From contig OMIV01000115.1 in the NCBI GenBank assembly GCA_900299185.1, positions 1 to 46,658 of the forward strand: a stretch of DNA of 46,658 bases, in the 5' to 3' direction. Under the pieces are notes generated by a model. It did no database searches. It saw only the letters and a program-made list of their open reading frames with translations, and was not told the DNA's origin. Below, piece after piece: positions 8,796-16,909 of the stretch. How positions within the stretch are numbered: position 1 is the stretch's first letter; each line of letters opens with the position of its first letter. Both the position numbers and the translations under genes were made by a program. This DNA is from Planctomycetaceae bacterium (GTDB lineage Bacteria; Planctomycetota; Planctomycetia; Planctomycetales; Planctomycetaceae).

Positions 8796-9878
8796 CTACA
8801 GGCTCCAAACCTTGGGAGTCCAAAAGCCTGTTTGCCAGCGGTCCGTGGTTTGGAACTCGCGCAACAACAACTTGCCGCCGTGAGATTCCACATAGAAGAA
8901 CGCCTGCGTGTCGCCGCCAAAATGGCTCGCGTTGTCGGTGTTGAAGACTCGAATTCCCGCCTGAGCCTGAGTCGACAATCCATCCCATTGAAAGACCTGT
9001 CGAGCATGGGTGTGGCCGTAAAAGATGCCCGCGACATTGTATCGATGAATGGCCTGATGAAAGGCACGAACGTCGCAAGGATCCCACTCCTTGCTGTCTG
9101 CTGGTGCTTGCGGATTGCAGGCAACGGAATAGCGAGCGATGTCGACATGATGAGTCAGCACAACGGGTCGTCCGCTGTCACCAACATGTTTCTGCAGATC
9201 AGCCACCAGGAACGGCAAACTGTCGAGCGAGGCGTAACGTCGCTTACGAGTAATGTTCGCGTCAGCCCCAACGATTAAACCCAGATTGACGAAGTGAGTA
9301 CGTCCCCAGTCCCACGAGTAATGCACTCCATTGTCGGAAACATGAACGACTCCCGGTCGGGACTTGTTTCGCTGTTTGATCTGCTCGATGAACAGCCCCT
9401 CGCCATGCGGTGAGTCGTGATTACCCGCCAGTTCAAAGACCGGGAACTTCAAGCGACCGTCTCGGCCCGTTAGTCCATAGTCCTCTTTGAAACGAGCTAA
9501 CTCCGTGCGCTGCATTTCGATCTGACCAACACCATGTTTGTCACCGGTGTCGATGACATCGCCGGCATGAATGACTCCTTCGATCTGCGAGACTTGGCCT
9601 CCGCCAGCGACTGCCGGAATGTCAGTGCCGGGCAGTCGATTGAGTGTGTCGACCAATCGACCGCAGATCGCCGCGGACTTGGCTTCCATCTCGTTCGGCT
9701 TACTGAGGTTGGCCAAGTAGTGAGTGTCGCCAATGAGGAAGAATGCAAAGTCCGGTTTGGCCGCGTCGGAAGCCCGCGCCGACGATGAATGGTTGGCGGA
9801 CAGTGCCATCGCTCCCACTGAAAGTTGAGAGAGGAAGCCTCGTCGCGTTAACGATGAAGACGAATTGATGAAGGGCAT
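8796..9878 (-). CDS. Tat-exported metallophosphoesterase
   Basis: ATG 9878 is chosen because TTGGAG lies six bases upstream; a TTG at 9890 is the alternative. The 360-residue product starts with a twin-arginine leader (SLTRRGFLSQLSVGAMALS) and then carries the metallophosphoesterase ligand series: GDTH, GVIHAGDVIDTGD, LAGNHDSPHG, VLTHHVD and GHTHAR. These bind two metal ions and hydrolyse phosphomono- or diesters, so the protein is likely a periplasmic or surface phosphatase. Purple-acid-type, calcineurin-like and phosphodiesterase subfamilies all share these motifs, and the substrate is not evident. It is divergent from the small membrane protein at 10007 and lies upstream of glnA. A functional link with glnA is not implied. 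Confidence 0.9.
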   Translation of the reverse strand: MPFINSSSSLTRRGFLSQLSVGAMALSANHSSSARASDAAKPDFAFFLIGDTHYLANLSKPNEMEAKSAAICGRLVDTLNRLPGTDIPAVAGGGQVSQIEGVIHAGDVIDTGDKHGVGQIEMQRTELARFKEDYGLTGRDGRLKFPVFELAGNHDSPHGEGLFIEQIKQRNKSRPGVVHVSDNGVHYSWDWGRTHFVNLGLIVGADANITRKRRYASLDSLPFLVADLQKHVGDSGRPVVLTHHVDIARYSVACNPQAPADSKEWDPCDVRAFHQAIHRYNVAGIFYGHTHARQVFQWDGLSTQAQAGIRVFNTDNASHFGGDTQAFFYVESHGGKLLLREFQTTDRWQTGFWTPKVWSL

Positions 9879-10006
9879 GGCGAACTCCAACTGGGGCGAC
9901 TTCGAAGAATAACTTGTCGGATGAAGATGCTTGCTAAGTGTCGTTCATCCTTCGAGCGATCTCACTGCTTAGCCCACTTCCTAATTGCATCGCAAGGATT
10001 GCTTTG

Positions 10007-10369
10007 ATGCTCGCTGCCGATGATCTACTTACATCAGGAACCGCATTGGAGTTTCTGCAATATATATGGTGGCACTCGCACCGAAACGCCGGCGGTTGGT
10101 TCGATGTCGTTTATCCCGCCTTCAACGTCGTCGAAGCCATTTGCTGGTTCTGTGTTGCTACATATGTGTGGCGACGCGCTCGCCGCCATTCCGGTCCGCG
10201 ATTGGAATTCTTTTATGCGGCCCTATGGCTGGCGTTTGGACTCACTGACTTACGGGAAGCGTGGGCACAGCAAACGTGGCTGATCCTGTTAAAGGGCTGC
10301 TTACTCGCGGTGTTGTTGTCGCTTCGCCGAATCATCCTGCGGCGTTATCCCAAGCACGTGGCCGTATGA
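10007..10369 (+). CDS. Small membrane protein of unknown function
   Basis: ATG 10007 gives 120 residues and is preceded by AAGGA at 9994-9998, a good ribosome site; a GTG at 9938 would add 23 residues but has no comparable site. Three hydrophobic segments are visible: WFDVVYPAFNVVEAICWFCV, FFYAALWLAFGL and TWLILLKGCLLAVLLSL, with basic loops (WRRARRH, RRIILRRYPK) suggesting a positive-inside topology. No family was recognised. It lies 106 bases upstream of coaX in the same direction and may share its transcript. Confidence 0.65.
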   Translation: MLAADDLLTSGTALEFLQYIWWHSHRNAGGWFDVVYPAFNVVEAICWFCVATYVWRRARRHSGPRLEFFYAALWLAFGLTDLREAWAQQTWLILLKGCLLAVLLSLRRIILRRYPKHVAV

Positions 10370-10475
10370 AGGCGAGTCGCGTTTCGTTGAATCTGGGATG
10401 TCGACTCGAACCGGCTGTTGAGTCCGACTAGCGTCCCGCAGATTCCTGGTCTCCTTTGAGTTCCGAAAGCGAAGC

Positions 10476-11303
10476 ATGTCTGAATCGTCTCGTTCTTGGT
10501 TGGCTGTCGACGTGGGCAACAGCCGAGTCAAATTCGTGCTCTTCAACGAACCACTCTATCGCGCCTCACTTGAATTGCCCGAAGCTCTCGCCGCTTGGAC
10601 GGTCGCACTGGGGCAGCCGATTCCGTGGCAAGATCTGCACCTCACGGTTAAGCGGCTGACGAATGGTGTGCATGCCGTAATCGCCGGATCGAATCAGAAG
10701 GCTGTCGACCGCATTGTCGAAGCTTGGCCGGAAACATTGAGCCATCGACCGTGTTTAGTTCGCAGTTCAGAGGGCTTTCCGCTTGAGATTCTTGTGGATG
10801 AACCGCGTCGAGTGGGACTCGATCGAGTGCTGAGTGCGGTAGCAGCAGCCGTCATCACCGCCAAACGCCGACCGGCAATCATTGTCGACTGCGGTACGGC
10901 GACGACGGTGAATCTCATGCGAGCCGATGGTGCGTTTCTTGGCGGCGCGATCCTGCCTGGATTCGCGCTGATGTCACAAGCATTGCATCATTACACCGAG
11001 GTCTTGCCACTCGTTTCGATAGAAGAAATCGTCAGTATTGATGGCGAGTATCGAGGTCATGCTCCGCTCGGCAAGAATACGAAGCAGGCCATCATGAGCG
11101 GTATTTTTTGGGGACAATTGGGGGCCGTTCGCGAACTCGTGCAAAGACTCAGCCAGGAAGTCGAAGGCTCTCCAGATGTCTTGCTGTCAGGAGGCGGGTC
11201 GCGTCTGCTCGTTCCCCATCTGACAACCGCGACGCATTACCCATATCTCGCCTTGCAGGGCCTTGTGCTTGTCGCAGCCGCGGGTCGCGCAACTTGCGTA
11301 TAA
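10476..11303 (+). CDS. coaX: Type III pantothenate kinase
   Basis: CoaX phosphorylates pantothenate with ATP, the first step of coenzyme A synthesis, and unlike CoaA is not inhibited by CoA. The 275-residue product begins with the phosphate-binding signature LAVDVGNSRVKFVLF, has PRRVGLDRVLSAVAA in the middle (the family's GxDRxxxxxAA), then the second phosphate loop VDCGTATTVNLM followed by FLGGAILPGF. AIMSGIFWG and the C-terminal VLLSGGGSRLL complete the ASKHA-type fold. Motifs and length are normal, so it is probably functional. The gene ends 65 bases before the thiamine synthase on the same strand. This coaX-thiE pairing suggests a small cofactor transcription unit. Confidence 0.93.
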   Translation: MSESSRSWLAVDVGNSRVKFVLFNEPLYRASLELPEALAAWTVALGQPIPWQDLHLTVKRLTNGVHAVIAGSNQKAVDRIVEAWPETLSHRPCLVRSSEGFPLEILVDEPRRVGLDRVLSAVAAAVITAKRRPAIIVDCGTATTVNLMRADGAFLGGAILPGFALMSQALHHYTEVLPLVSIEEIVSIDGEYRGHAPLGKNTKQAIMSGIFWGQLGAVRELVQRLSQEVEGSPDVLLSGGGSRLLVPHLTTATHYPYLALQGLVLVAAAGRATCV

Positions 11304-11368
11304 GTGATTATCAATCGCATCTCGCAGCTATTCCGACAAATGTAGATTATCATTTTCTTTCGACCTCG

Positions 11369-12922
11369 ATGGAGCATGCTCGCATGCAAGAACAAACGCT
11401 GACAGAAGGAGCACGCCGAGCAATTGAGCTGGCCCAAAGATTGGCCCGCGAAGAATCGCGACTCCCCACGCCGGGGCATCTGCTTTGGGCTTTGCTGTCT
11501 GAGGAATCAATGGCCTCGGAACGACTCGCGAGCTACGGATTCCTGTTGGATAACGTCGAGCGAGACGGCTTGTTTTCGAGTGTTGGTTCGAGCGATGAGT
11601 CCAAGACAGAAGACGATTGGGATGAATTGCTGTGGCATGCCGATTCGCAAGCTCGTCGGGAAGGGCGCGGTACCGATGTCTCGACTGAGCATCTCTTGTC
11701 GGCGTTGCTGCTCGTGAATTCGCCCGTGCAAAAACTCTTGGCGAAAGGCGGCCTACGAGATGAATCGACTGTCGCACGACCAGAGCGACTTGCGAATCCC
11801 ATCGCTCCAAACTTTGAAATCCAATGGACAGACACAACAGAAAACGACCGGACTCGGACGCTTCGAATTCTGGATGCCGCAGCTAATCGGGCCAGGGAAG
11901 GTTTTAGAGTCGTCGAGGATTATGTTCGCTTCACCCTCGACGATGCCTTCCTGAGTCGGCAATTGAAGGAACTCCGACATGGATTGAGCACCGCATTGTC
12001 GTCGTTGAACGACGTAATCTTGGTGCATTCACGTGATACTCAAGGCGACGTTGGGACGACGATTCGAACATCAACTGAGATGCATCGCGCGACTCTGTTC
12101 GATGTTGCAAAAGCCAATCTCAAACGAATTGAAGAGGCAACTCGCACACTCGAAGAGTTTTCGAAAGTTGCGACAGCCTTTGATCGAAGCTCTCGCCAAT
12201 TGCAGGAACTTCCCGAACAACTCGGTCAGGTGCGATATCAACTCTATACCTTGGAGAAAGCCATTCTGACCGCTCATGACAGCCGACGCCGCCTGGAAGA
12301 TGCGAACCTATATCTGCTTCTGACGAAGTCCCTTTGTCTTCATCCCTGGGAAACAGTGCTTCGAGAGGCAATTTCGGGGGGAGTGCGAATCGTACAAATT
12401 CGTGAAAAGGAAATACCCGATCGGGAGCTTTTGGAACACGCTCGCCGCGTGCGTCAGATAACTTCTGAACTTGGGACGCTACTCATCATCAACGATCGTC
12501 CGGACGTTGCTGCTCTTAGTGACGCTGACGGAGTACACGTCGGGCAAGAAGAACTTGCCATAGCCGACGCGCGTCGCATCGTCGGCCATGACCGTCTAGT
12601 GGGAGTCTCGACGCACTCCATGGATCAGGCTCGACAAGCTGTGCTCGATGGGGCCAGCTACATCGGAGTTGGTCCGACCTTTACTTCCGGCACCAAGCAA
12701 TTCAATTCGCTCGCCGGTCTGGAATACGTGGGGCAGGTCGCCAGCGAGATTGGATTGCCTGCTTTCGCGATCGGCGGAATTGATGCCACCAACATTGGAA
12801 ACGTAATTTCCGTGGGGGGAACTCGCGTCGCGGTGAGCGGAGCCATTTGCCGTGCAGATCAGCCCCGAATCGCGTCCGCGGAATTGTGTGAGAAGCTCAA
12901 AACCAGCGTCAGATCAAGGTGA
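11369..12922 (+). CDS. thiE: Three-part thiamine-phosphate synthase: Clp_N repeats + ThiD2-like + ThiE
   Basis: The protein is 517 residues from ATG 11369 (ATG 11384 is an alternative; the frame stays open back into coaX, but those residues lack family character). Residues 7-55 and 81-125 each resemble one half of the Clp_N repeat that serves Clp ATPases as substrate- or adaptor-binding domain (RRAIELAQRLAREES, PTPGHLLWALL, then VSTEHLLSALL). Residues 160-310 (RTLRILDAAANRAREGFRV, GDVGTTIRTSTEM) resemble the ThiD2-type domain attached to ThiE in some bacteria. Residues 312-515 are ThiE, which joins HMP pyrophosphate to thiazole phosphate: VQIREKEIPD, LLIINDRPDVAAL, DGVHVGQEEL, GVSTHS, YIGVGPTFTSGTKQF, FAIGGIDATN. 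In GQEEL a Glu replaces the Asp that in Bacillus ThiE coordinates magnesium. The Clp_N part is the odd feature. No AAA+ ATPase domain follows it. Confidence 0.88.
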   Translation: MEHARMQEQTLTEGARRAIELAQRLAREESRLPTPGHLLWALLSEESMASERLASYGFLLDNVERDGLFSSVGSSDESKTEDDWDELLWHADSQARREGRGTDVSTEHLLSALLLVNSPVQKLLAKGGLRDESTVARPERLANPIAPNFEIQWTDTTENDRTRTLRILDAAANRAREGFRVVEDYVRFTLDDAFLSRQLKELRHGLSTALSSLNDVILVHSRDTQGDVGTTIRTSTEMHRATLFDVAKANLKRIEEATRTLEEFSKVATAFDRSSRQLQELPEQLGQVRYQLYTLEKAILTAHDSRRRLEDANLYLLLTKSLCLHPWETVLREAISGGVRIVQIREKEIPDRELLEHARRVRQITSELGTLLIINDRPDVAALSDADGVHVGQEELAIADARRIVGHDRLVGVSTHSMDQARQAVLDGASYIGVGPTFTSGTKQFNSLAGLEYVGQVASEIGLPAFAIGGIDATNIGNVISVGGTRVAVSGAICRADQPRIASAELCEKLKTSVRSR

Positions 12923-12934
12923 TCTGACGCTGGT
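12902..12934 (+). terminator. Perfect 15-bp hairpin overlapping the thiE stop codon
   Basis: Bases 12902-12916 are the exact reverse complement of 12920-12934, separated by the 3-base loop AGG. The thiE stop codon TGA (12920-12922) lies at the base of the right arm, so the hairpin includes the last thiE codons. No T run follows, so it is not a canonical rho-independent terminator; it may stop transcription with help, protect the 3' end of the mRNA, or be a palindromic repeat. Confidence 0.6.
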
Positions 12935-13325
12935 GATTGGAGAATTTGCGATCTCCATCTCTAAGTAGCTCGTCACATCTAGCGTTGGCCTCAACTTGGT
13001 TTGCTCAGGCATGTTCGACGGGTTTGGCAGCACTTCATTATTGCCACCAGGCCTCTGCCACGCTGGCAGGCGACTTCATGCTTCGCTGCTTTGGTCGCTT
13101 GAATTGGCAGATCATCGAAGCAGGTCTCATCTCGTAAAGCATTGCAAAATTGTCATTTACGATTGCCGCAAAGTCGCGGCACGATGTTCGCTTACCAGGC
13201 ACCAGTCAATTGGTGTCTGAATTTGGCACCACTCAAAAACACCGCTGGTCTGTGGAGTTCGTATCCGACAGGGTCGGGACCAGACCGCAAACTCGAACTG
13301 AAGTGATTCGACCGAGGAGTTCAGA
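12935..13325. other. Intergenic region upstream of groES
   Basis: About 390 bases without a credible gene. Two small hairpins are visible: CTGCCA-cgc-TGGCAG (13055-13069) and TGCCGC-aaagtc-GCGGCA (13164-13181). A CACCA/TGGTG inverted repeat lies near 13199-13214. The region should contain the groES promoter, but no CIRCE operator (TTAGCACTC-N9-GAGTGCTAA) and no convincing sigma-70 or heat-shock promoter was found. A ribosome site GAGGAG lies just before the groES ATG, at 13314-13319. Confidence 0.5.
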
Positions 13326-13628
13326 ATGGCGAAGAGCAAGGGCACGAAGTTGATTCCCCTGGGTGACCGAGTCGTAGTCCAACGGGATGAGGCAGAGACC
13401 ACCACGGCTGGCGGCATCGTTCTGCCGGATTCGGCTAAGAACAAGCCGCAACGCGGCAAGGTAATCGCCGTTGGCGAAGGCCACGTTCGCCGTGACGGCA
13501 AGAAGATCGCCCTGACCGTCAAGGAAGGTGATAGCGTTCTCTTCACGTCTTATGCTGGCGAAGAAATTAAGGTCGGCGATGGAGAGTTTCTGCTGCTCCG
13601 CGAAAGCGACATCCTCGCCACGTTTTAG
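13326..13628 (+). CDS. groES: Co-chaperonin GroES
   Basis: GroES is the heptameric lid of the GroEL folding chamber. The 100-residue protein has the expected size and landmarks: [16 protein letters not shown] at the start, the mobile loop that contacts GroEL ([14 protein letters not shown]), [34 protein letters not shown] and the C-terminal [12 protein letters not shown]. The start ATG 13326 is preceded by GAGGAG at 13314-13319. groEL follows after 163 bases, a rather wide spacer in which an inverted repeat (AGTTTGC 13643-13649, GCAAACT 13677-13683) could form a hairpin. The two genes are very likely expressed together under stress control. Confidence 0.97.
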
Positions 13629-13791
13629 CTTCTAGATTGTCGAGTTTGCTCATCGGTGTTTCCTGATTGAGCCTCGGCAAACTGAATTCTCAAGCGGCCT
13701 TGTGAACGCTGCTTCTCATGCAGATCTCGTTGGCATCGCCACGAAATGACACGGCTGCAATCAATCTCAAATCCATTTGGAGATATCATTC

Positions 13792-15405
13792 ATGGCAAAG
13801 ATCATTGCCTTTGATCAAGAAGCGCAAGAAGCGATGCGCCGTGGCGTTCAGAAACTCGCCAAGGCCGTGAAGACAACTCTTGGGCCGCGTGGCCGCAACG
13901 TCATTCTGTCGAAAAGCTTCGGTTCTCCGACAGTGACCAAAGACGGCGTCACGGTCGCCCGCGAAATCGAGCTCGGTGACAAGTTTGAAGACATGGGTGC
14001 TCGCCTCGTTCGCGAAGTTGCCAGCAAGACCAGTGACAATGCCGGTGACGGTACCACAACGGCGACCGTGATGGCCGAGGCAATCTTCATCGAAGGTCTC
14101 AAAGGTGTTGTCGCTGGTGTTAATCCAATTGAAATGAAGCGGGGCATGGATAAGGCGGTTGATCAGATCGTCGCCAAGCTCAAGGAAATGTCGACCGAGT
14201 GTCGTTCCAAAAAGTCCATCGCTCAGGTTGGTACTGTTGCAGCCAATGGCGACGAGGAAATTGGCAGTATCCTCGCTGATGCGATGGAGCAAGTCGGCAA
14301 GGACGGCGTGATCACTGTTGAAGATGGCAAGAGTCTTAAGACGGAACTCGAGAAGAAGGAAGGTATGCAGTTCGATCGCGGCTATTTGTCGCCGTACTTC
14401 GTAACCGACCCACAAACGATGGAGTGCGTTTACGATGACTGCTATGTGCTGATCAATGAAAAGAAGATTAGCAACATTAAGGATCTGGTACCGGTCCTTG
14501 AGAAGGTGGTCCAAAGTGGAAAGCCTCTATTGATCATCGCTGAGGACATCGATGGTGAAGCGTTGGCGACGCTGGTCATTAATAAGCTTCGAGGCACCTT
14601 CAAATGTGTCGCCGTGAAAGCTCCAGGATACGGCGACCGTCGCAAGGCATTATTGCAAGATATTGCGATTATGTGTGGCGGCCAGGCCATCTTCGAAGAT
14701 TTGGGGATCAAGTTGGACAACGTTCAACTCAGCGATCTCGGCCGTGCCAAGAAGGTAATTGTTGATAAAGATAATACAACAATCATCGAAGGCGCCGGCA
14801 AAGGCTCTGACATAAAGGCTCGCATCGAGCAAATTCGTCGCGAAGTCGAAATCTCAACAAGCGACTACGACAAAGAGAAACTCAACGAGCGAGTTGCGAA
14901 ATTGTCCGGTGGCGTTGCTCAGGTCAACGTGGGAGCCGCAACCGAGTCCGAGATGAAAGAAAAGAAGGCTCGAGTTGAAGACGCCCTACATGCGACTCGC
15001 GCTGCCGTTGCTGAAGGAATTCTGCCTGGTGGTGGCGTCGCATTATTGCGTGCTTCTTCGGGCTTGAAGGCCAAAGGCTTGTCTCACGACGAAGAAGTTG
15101 GTTTCAATATCATCGTCCGAGCATGCCGTGCTCCGATTACGCAAATCGCTAACAACGCTGGTGTTGACGGTGCGGTGATCTGCGAGAAAGTCCTAGAGCA
15201 AGACGGAAACAAGGGCTACAACGCAGCAACTGGGAAGTTCGAGGATCTCGTTAAAACGGGCATCATTGATCCGACCAAGGTCACGCGCACTGCTCTGCAA
15301 AATGCGTCAAGCGTTGCAACTCTGCTTTTGACGAGTGATGCACTGATTGCAGAGAAGCCAAAGGATGACAAGAAAGGACATGGTCACGACGAGGATGTCT
15401 ACTAG
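13792..15405 (+). CDS. groEL: Chaperonin GroEL with a His/Asp-rich tail
   Basis: GroEL is the 60-kDa double-ring ATPase that folds proteins in the cytoplasm with GroES. ATG 13792 starts [15 protein letters not shown], 537 residues, with TTGGAGAT upstream; an ATG five codons earlier is less likely. Hallmarks are intact: [12 protein letters not shown], the ATP-site [46 protein letters not shown], and [14 protein letters not shown]. The C terminus ends GHGHDEDVY and lacks the Gly-Gly-Met repeats of canonical housekeeping GroEL. Planctomycetes often carry several groEL genes, so this may be one of multiple paralogs, although pairing with groES argues for a main copy. A strong terminator lies 44 bases downstream. 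Confidence 0.97.
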
Positions 15406-15449
15406 GATCGAGTGATCTTTGACGCCAAGTCATGTCGACTAATATCATC

Positions 15450-15494
15450 AACACACCCAGGATTTCGTTATGAACTCCTGGGTGTGTTCGTTTT
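15450..15494 (+). terminator. Rho-independent terminator after groEL
   Basis: AACACACCCAGGA (15450-15462) pairs perfectly with TCCTGGGTGTGTT (15476-15488), a 13-bp stem with a 13-base loop, followed by CGTTTTC. The stem, the short T run and the location 44 bases after the groEL stop make this the clearest intrinsic terminator in the window. Confidence 0.85.
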
Positions 15495-15649
15495 CAGGCC
15501 CATATCTGGTAACCACAATCGCTACCGACCTCGAACCCGGTTTAGACTCATTTTTGCAATTGGCCAAACTTTGGATTTATACAGATTTCCAGAATTACTC
15601 AACTTCGTCGTTGTACATCCCAAATTCCAAGTGAAGGCTATGCTTCTTC

Positions 15650-16909
15650 ATGAATCTCGATTGGCCTGATTATGGAGACTCGGCAGTGGGACGTTATCGA
15701 TTTCTAACGAAGTTCAATGTCGGGCTTGTGCTCGCACTAATTGCAGCAGTTGTTATCTACTTTGCTCCGCAGCCAACCGCTCGCGATGTCTTCGAACAGG
15801 GGGTTGCTGCGATATTGCGGCATGACCATGAGAAAGCTGAACGACTCGCACAACAGTTGCGTAGCTTGCCTAATAGCGAAACTCTCGAGCGAGTTTTGAA
15901 CGGCGGAATTCTCGCTCAATCAGGATACTTCCGTGAAGCTTTGACTGAACTTGAACCAACCGCTGCCAAGGGCGGCCTTCATCGCGAGTATGCGTTATTG
16001 TGGATTGGAGAGTCCTACTATGGCCTAAGAGACTTAGCGAGATCTGAGATCGTACTTCGCACCGCGTTGATTGAGTTTCCAAATAATAAAGAAGTAATTC
16101 GAATAAACGCCGCCGTCTATTACGACCTAGGAGCGATGTACCCGGCTCTAACTCAGTTAGAGAAACTCAAAAAACTCACGCCGCTTGATTCTCGACCATA
16201 CCACATGGCCGGCGCCATCTATCTTGATTTTGAACAATTCGACGAAGCTGTGGCTAATCTCAAAGCCGCACTCGATCGCAATCCAACTCAAACTCAACGT
16301 GAAGAGATTATTCTCGATCTCGCGGTTTCACTGCGGAAGCTTCTTCGATATCAGGAAGCATTGGCAAATCTTGACTGCGTAAGCAGTTCAGCAAAAAGAT
16401 TCGCAGAGCAGGCATTGTGTCACCTCGGATTGGGAAACATCAGCGATGCCGCAGCATGCATCGAATCCGCACGTACTTTGCAGGAACAGTCGCCAGATCT
16501 GTATCGAGCCGAATCGCAATTGATGATTGAGAAAAAACAATTTGGAGATGCAATAATTGTACTTGAAAAACTTGCCGCAGCAGAACCACATGACTTCGAA
16601 GTTCATTACAAAATGGCATCTGTATATAAACAATTGAACCTCCCAGATGATCAAGCCGAAGCGATAAAAAAGTTCGAATCTAAGCAGTCACTTCGAAGTC
16701 GGCTAACAGAACTAAACCAATTAGCTAATCAAAACCCCTATGACGCCGACCTTCGTTTACAACTTGCAGATACTTGTAAGCAATTGGGGCGTTCGGATCT
16801 CGAAAAGATTTGGTTCGAAGCCGCAGATGCGTGTCGAGATATTGAGATACAGCGAATTCGGGAAAAGAAACGATCAGACTCGCATAATCAAGTGAGGGAT
16901 TACCGCTAG
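15650..16909 (+). CDS. Membrane-anchored TPR protein (first of a convergent pair)
   Basis: The 419-residue product has one hydrophobic segment at about residues 23-42 (FNVGLVLALIAAVVIYFAP), then tetratricopeptide-like helical pairs through most of the rest: VFEQGVAAILRHDHEKAERL, ALLWIGESYYGLRDLARSE, YHMAGAIYLDFEQFDEAVANL and VHYKMASVYKQLNLPDDQAEA. TPR arrays bind proteins or peptides; here the array would be anchored with its repeats outside the cytoplasm. No enzymatic domain is visible. The gene is convergent with another membrane-anchored TPR gene; their stop codons are 46 bases apart. Its DNA is visibly richer in A and T than the flanks. The start ATG 15650 has only a weak ribosome site. 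Confidence 0.8.
   Translation: MNLDWPDYGDSAVGRYRFLTKFNVGLVLALIAAVVIYFAPQPTARDVFEQGVAAILRHDHEKAERLAQQLRSLPNSETLERVLNGGILAQSGYFREALTELEPTAAKGGLHREYALLWIGESYYGLRDLARSEIVLRTALIEFPNNKEVIRINAAVYYDLGAMYPALTQLEKLKKLTPLDSRPYHMAGAIYLDFEQFDEAVANLKAALDRNPTQTQREEIILDLAVSLRKLLRYQEALANLDCVSSSAKRFAEQALCHLGLGNISDAAACIESARTLQEQSPDLYRAESQLMIEKKQFGDAIIVLEKLAAAEPHDFEVHYKMASVYKQLNLPDDQAEAIKKFESKQSLRSRLTELNQLANQNPYDADLRLQLADTCKQLGRSDLEKIWFEAADACRDIEIQRIREKKRSDSHNQVRDYR

Follow-up and report, generated by a model that had tools for sequence, protein, structure and literature searches.

The window (the whole 46,658-nucleotide stretch of Planctomycetaceae DNA analysed here) contains a forward-strand gene at coordinates 11369–12922 that encodes two Clp_N repeats followed by ThiD2 and ThiE domains. 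The frame opens before 11369, closes with the stop codon at 12922, and spans 517 residues with no internal stop. The second ATG, at 11384 (MQEQTLTEGARR...), is favoured as the start codon because related proteins start 4–5 residues ahead of a conserved LT, and would give a product of 512 residues; the ATG at 11369 (517 residues) is a less likely alternative. The preliminary description allowed that a missed start might divide the region into two genes. The fusion frame is uninterrupted in dozens of further genomes, which speaks against both a frameshift error and a pair of separate genes and establishes it as a single gene. The neighbours, as read from the sequence, are all on the forward strand: a type III pantothenate kinase gene (coaX; 10476–11303) lies upstream, and groES (13326–13628) and groEL (13777–15405) lie downstream. 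A coaX homologue is also upstream of the gene in the nearest relative (L008), and the clpC gene of the window's genome is on a different contig (C357). An Rfam search of coordinates 9000–16000 gives no match to a TPP riboswitch, and a promoter scan gave no result.

The first Clp_N repeat occupies residues ~11–72 (11399–11584) and carries a family-conserved acidic residue, E46. The second corresponds to residues ~77–136 (11597–11776) and includes the sequence S-T-E-H-L at positions 105–109. A linker of residues 137–159 (11777–11845) with low model confidence and a nearly invariant proline (Pro144) separates these from the ThiD2 domain (HMP-phosphate kinase; residues 166–297; 11864–12259) and the ThiE, or TMP-TENI, domain (thiamine phosphate synthase; residues 314–493; 12308–12847). 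All three families exceed their curated Pfam cut-offs, with 125.4 bits for ThiD2 (E = 2.2e-36), 185.6 bits for TMP-TENI (E = 7e-55), and 24.8 bits against a cut-off of 20.7 for Clp_N, the last being a weak match derived mainly from the second repeat. No AAA family is matched by Pfam anywhere in the 517-residue protein, in agreement with the reported lack of an AAA+ module.

Because the Clp_N match of the lone sequence is weak, relatives were used to test it. Clp_N is matched in 39 of 43 full-length relatives (best E = 1.5e-26), and a profile built from the N-domains of 41 relatives aligns end to end (residues 1–135) with solved ClpC1 N-domains (E = 1.5e-25), with lower significance for ClpC2 (5.8e-19) and E. 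coli ClpB (1.5e-13 to 2.6e-15). At the level of sequence comparison both Clp_N repeats are certain once the relatives are included. An AlphaFold model of the whole protein has a mean pLDDT of 90 with a flexible linker around residues 139–158, and the N-domain forms an all-helical double repeat in which most blocks have pLDDT values of 88–95; values are low at the N-terminus, at residues 71–80, and in the linker. A PDB fold search with the whole chain was filled by ThiE structures (Z 29–31 for the ThiE part), and the N-domain was therefore folded separately (mean pLDDT 84.6). Its top PDB matches are all Clp N-domains, namely those of ClpC, ClpB, ClpA, ClpT1/T2, ClpD, ClpC2, and Hsp104 (Z 12.4–16.6; Foldseek E = 8.8e-5). 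Pfam, profile and fold comparisons all agree with the preliminary description of two Clp_N half repeats ahead of a ThiD2-like domain and a complete ThiE, and the fusion of a complete double Clp_N, ThiD2, and ThiE in one polypeptide is confirmed.

The ThiE active-site motifs QxREK, NDRPD, and GxTK are present, and Q343, R345, K347, N375, D376, R377, T442, and K443 are invariant in 43 sequences. As noted earlier, the ThiD2–ThiE pairing is itself known: residues 156–512 score 361.3 bits against the NCBIfam model PRK02615 (cyanobacterial-type thiamine phosphate synthase; cut-off 335), which has the same order of the two domains, although that family lacks Clp_N and its model has 349 residues. Judged from these matches, the protein is a bifunctional enzyme with a ClpC-type N-terminal domain, predicted to convert HMP-P to HMP-PP and then to combine it with thiazole phosphate to yield thiamine phosphate. 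ThiD2 phosphorylates HMP-P and not HMP (PMC12345177). Phos_pyr_kin, the family of canonical ThiD, gives only weak and partial matches, so that phosphorylation of HMP-P probably falls to ThiD2 in this organism. ThiC is present in the genome.

The preliminary description called for a survey of planctomycete ThiE proteins. ThiE is matched in 195 of 198 genomes of the class Planctomycetia, with most alignments starting at residue ~7 and the others only at ~160. Among 120 distinct ThiD2–ThiE proteins of the class placed in a tree, 93 are fused, and by our own count at least 67 genera, from 10 families, carry the fusion. No case turned up among 141 genomes sampled from other planctomycete classes; outside the class, every match in the phylum sample starts at residue 126 or later, and the cyanobacterial and Phycisphaerae ThiD2–ThiE enzymes compared are unfused. 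The architecture is therefore ancestral to Planctomycetia and, as far as sampled, confined to this class. One contig titled Candidatus Kuenenia (L126) has an enzyme and clpC arrangement of the Planctomycetia type; it is likely mis-binned since its enzyme falls within Planctomycetia, and was left out as evidence outside the class.

In a tree of the enzyme part, the 93 fused proteins of Planctomycetia form one clade with the 27 unfused ones (96% SH-aLRT) that requires at least eight changes of fusion state, read most simply as a single gain with repeated loss. The unfused members belong to families f5, f11, and f17 and to parts of f1 and f7, and have short unrelated N-termini with no domain remnants. 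The N-domain diverges fast (mean identity among members 26%). In pairs of close relatives its dN/dS is mostly 0.10–0.31, with 0.65 in one pair that has very few changes, and that of the enzyme part is 0.03–0.11; the N-domain is under purifying selection, with weaker constraint than the enzyme part.

The thiD2-thiE gene is head-to-head with clpC in many Planctomycetia, fused and unfused alike. The pair is found in at least seven families (f1, f5, f9, f11, f13, f14, and f16, together with named Pirellulales) and is always divergent, never on the same strand. Where the neighbouring clpC is complete it was recognised from its AAA+ region, and complete frames beside the gene include one of 893 residues next to an unfused enzyme (L068) and one of 843 residues next to a fused enzyme (L078). 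Members of Isosphaeraceae, Gemmataceae, f4, and f8 retain the fusion with no clpC within the 1.4–3 kb examined. In several families the space between thiD2-thiE and clpC holds a frame of ~200 residues (WPGL...WRGL), perhaps a membrane protein, upstream of clpC (L062 3306–4001, forward; L052 547–1203, reverse; L050 1439–2176, reverse). A frame upstream of L053 considered as a Clp_N domain was rejected, as it is not Clp_N. At another locus (L169; G053:C40) clpC is present as two divergent frames, perhaps through a frameshift or an extra adjoining N-domain frame, and single frames with several tandem Clp_N double domains are found in two genomes (G015:C314:58277-60529, right beside clpC, and G008:C1:6035208-6036029).

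The N-domain was probably captured from clpC, the adjacent gene in many relatives. In an N-domain tree, those of 86 ThiE proteins group beside ClpC N-domains as their sister group and are split from ClpB at 99% SH-aLRT; the ClpC sequences in this tree are planctomycete only. Raw N-domain identity is equal to ClpC and ClpB (~22% each) and fails to separate them, so it is the profile and the tree that place the N-domain with ClpC. A ClpB origin is disfavoured by both (profile E of 1.5e-25 for ClpC1 and 1.5e-13 for ClpB). On a well-supported reading, the 5′ end of a neighbouring clpC was captured as an inverted copy ahead of thiE in an ancestor of the class.

One lineage differs from this general pattern. 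In genome G146 (locus L052) the ThiE N-domain is 60% identical to that of the adjacent ClpC and only 20% identical to that of its nearest relative in the enzyme tree (L083), is of a nearly canonical ClpC type, and falls inside the ClpC clade (98%). The DNA of the clpC and thiE N-domains is 71% identical over 230 bp in inverted orientation; a value of this size is already expected from the similarity of the proteins, and such inverted similarity is seen in L052 only. An AU test does not reject a single clade of all ThiE N-domains including that of G146 (p = 0.395), and hence does not settle the choice between a second capture and slow retention. A second capture or gene conversion, in which the N-domain was added or replaced from clpC, seems the likelier reading, with slow retention of an ancestral N-domain less likely, and the pattern suggests repeated capture of the ClpC N-domain.

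The ClpC N-domain binds adaptors, phosphoarginine (through E32 and E106), and peptides (PMC12583610). The glutamate of the first phosphoarginine pocket (pArg1; E32) corresponds to Gly36 here, and the position is variable across the family, with the glutamate lost in the main clade. That of the second (pArg2; E106) is kept as Glu107 (E in 76% and D in 17% of the family), although it may be structural since ClpB shows an equally fixed glutamate there; the pArg2 threonine is mostly replaced in the main clade. The domain has thus retained its fold, whereas most of the ligand sites known from ClpC are gone. A role as a phosphoarginine receptor was rejected, as the pocket residues are not retained in the main clade. 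Other positions have become conserved in the ThiE N-domains, including R17 (96%) and an acidic residue at position 46 (96%) followed by Arg/Ala; these are not common to ClpC and suggest an interface of the domain's own.

Besides a ClpC in which both GTEH motifs are present, the genome to which the window belongs encodes two adjacent ClpPs, ClpS, and a McsA–McsB pair. A McsA-like protein followed by a McsB-like arginine kinase is encoded at L164 (G000:C292, 4596–6580, forward). McsB-family kinases are present in 195 of 198 Planctomycetia genomes; their co-occurrence with the fusion is therefore uninformative, and signalling through phosphoarginine may extend throughout the class. A stand-alone double Clp_N protein of ~150 residues without AAA+ is encoded at L165 (G000:C224, 5007–5483, forward), and a similar 159-residue frame is present in G045.

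The reading we prefer, at a probability of roughly 0.45, is that the N-domain is a docking module for partners from the Clp system. ClpS-type adaptors, the McsA–McsB kinase, or ClpC/ClpP itself would dock on the enzyme through this domain, and the docked partners would set the turnover or the activity of ThiD2–ThiE. The proposal in the preliminary description that Clp proteolysis could be linked to thiamine synthesis is plausible and gains indirect support from the ClpC-like domain, the divergent clpC of many relatives, and the Clp and McsA–McsB components of the genome. In plants, a CLPC1 trap enriches THIC (PMC8889267), and thiamine enzymes can thus be Clp interactors. Against docking, most members have decayed ClpC ligand sites, the N-domain diverges fast and has conserved residues of its own, and the fusion persists without an adjacent clpC in Isosphaeraceae and Gemmataceae and has been lost in lineages that retain ClpC and McsB. 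The more specific proposal that the last thiamine steps are directly controlled by ClpC/McsB, via a domain that the adjacent clpC supplied, perhaps on two occasions, is less likely than not.

Ranking close behind docking, and nearly as likely, is a scaffold with no Clp partner, in which the N-domain packs on or oligomerises with ThiD2–ThiE and either stabilises the enzyme or unites its two active sites. The decay of the ClpC pockets while new conserved residues arose is consistent with this, as are the near-invariance of Pro144 in the linker, the moderate constraint on the N-domain, and the retention of the fusion where clpC is not adjacent. However, the unfused relatives have the bare enzyme with no such domain, which is thus dispensable for catalysis, and the retention or re-acquisition in G146 of a near-canonical ClpC N-domain with both pocket glutamates is odd for a mere scaffold. 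Less probable again is a chance by-product, an inverted duplication of the 5′ end of the adjacent clpC that fell in frame with thiE and is tolerated as ballast. Adjacency of clpC offers an easy route to it, and both the repeated loss (at least eight changes on the tree) and the faster evolution of the N-domain relative to the enzyme part fit, but purifying selection (dN/dS mostly 0.1–0.3) and an intact double-repeat fold over at least 67 genera do not. That the domain acts as a decoy or sponge, taking up phosphoarginine or peptides directed at ClpC, is very improbable: mycobacterial ClpC2, an AAA-less Clp_N protein, binds cyclomarin (PMC10030653) and McsB is nearly universal in the class (195/198), but the pocket residues have decayed in most members and there is no reason to couple a sponge to a low-demand vitamin enzyme.

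Clp_N proteins without an AAA+ module have precedents in plant ClpT1/T2 (PMC8889267) and mycobacterial ClpC2 (PMC10030653). The planctomycete N-domain shares the double-repeat fold with all of these as well as with ClpC (Z up to 16.6 for ClpC, 15.5 for ClpT2, 15.3 for ClpT1, and 13.6 for ClpC2). However, ClpC has an AAA+ ring, together with the pArg1 glutamate and pArg2 threonine that the main clade lacks; the ClpT proteins are stand-alone subunits of the Clp core, whereas the planctomycete domain is fused to an enzyme; and ClpC2 represses its own promoter, binds cyclomarin, and has no enzyme domain (PMC10030653). A search of the open literature on ThiD2–ThiE, on Clp_N together with thiamine, and on planctomycete Clp_N fusions found no description of this architecture, subscription papers being outside the search; sequence databases may show it automatically.

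Whatever the present function of the domain, the pattern resembles the capture of a domain from an adjacent gene, and this process can be studied through the head-to-head clpC conserved in relatives, the fusion inherited from an ancestor of the class, and the exceptional G146 lineage. With McsB-family kinases near-universal in the class, arginine-phosphate signalling could be tested in planctomycetes. If the domain is still a Clp docking site, ThiD2–ThiE would carry a protease receptor of its own, directly connecting protein quality control with the synthesis of a vitamin.
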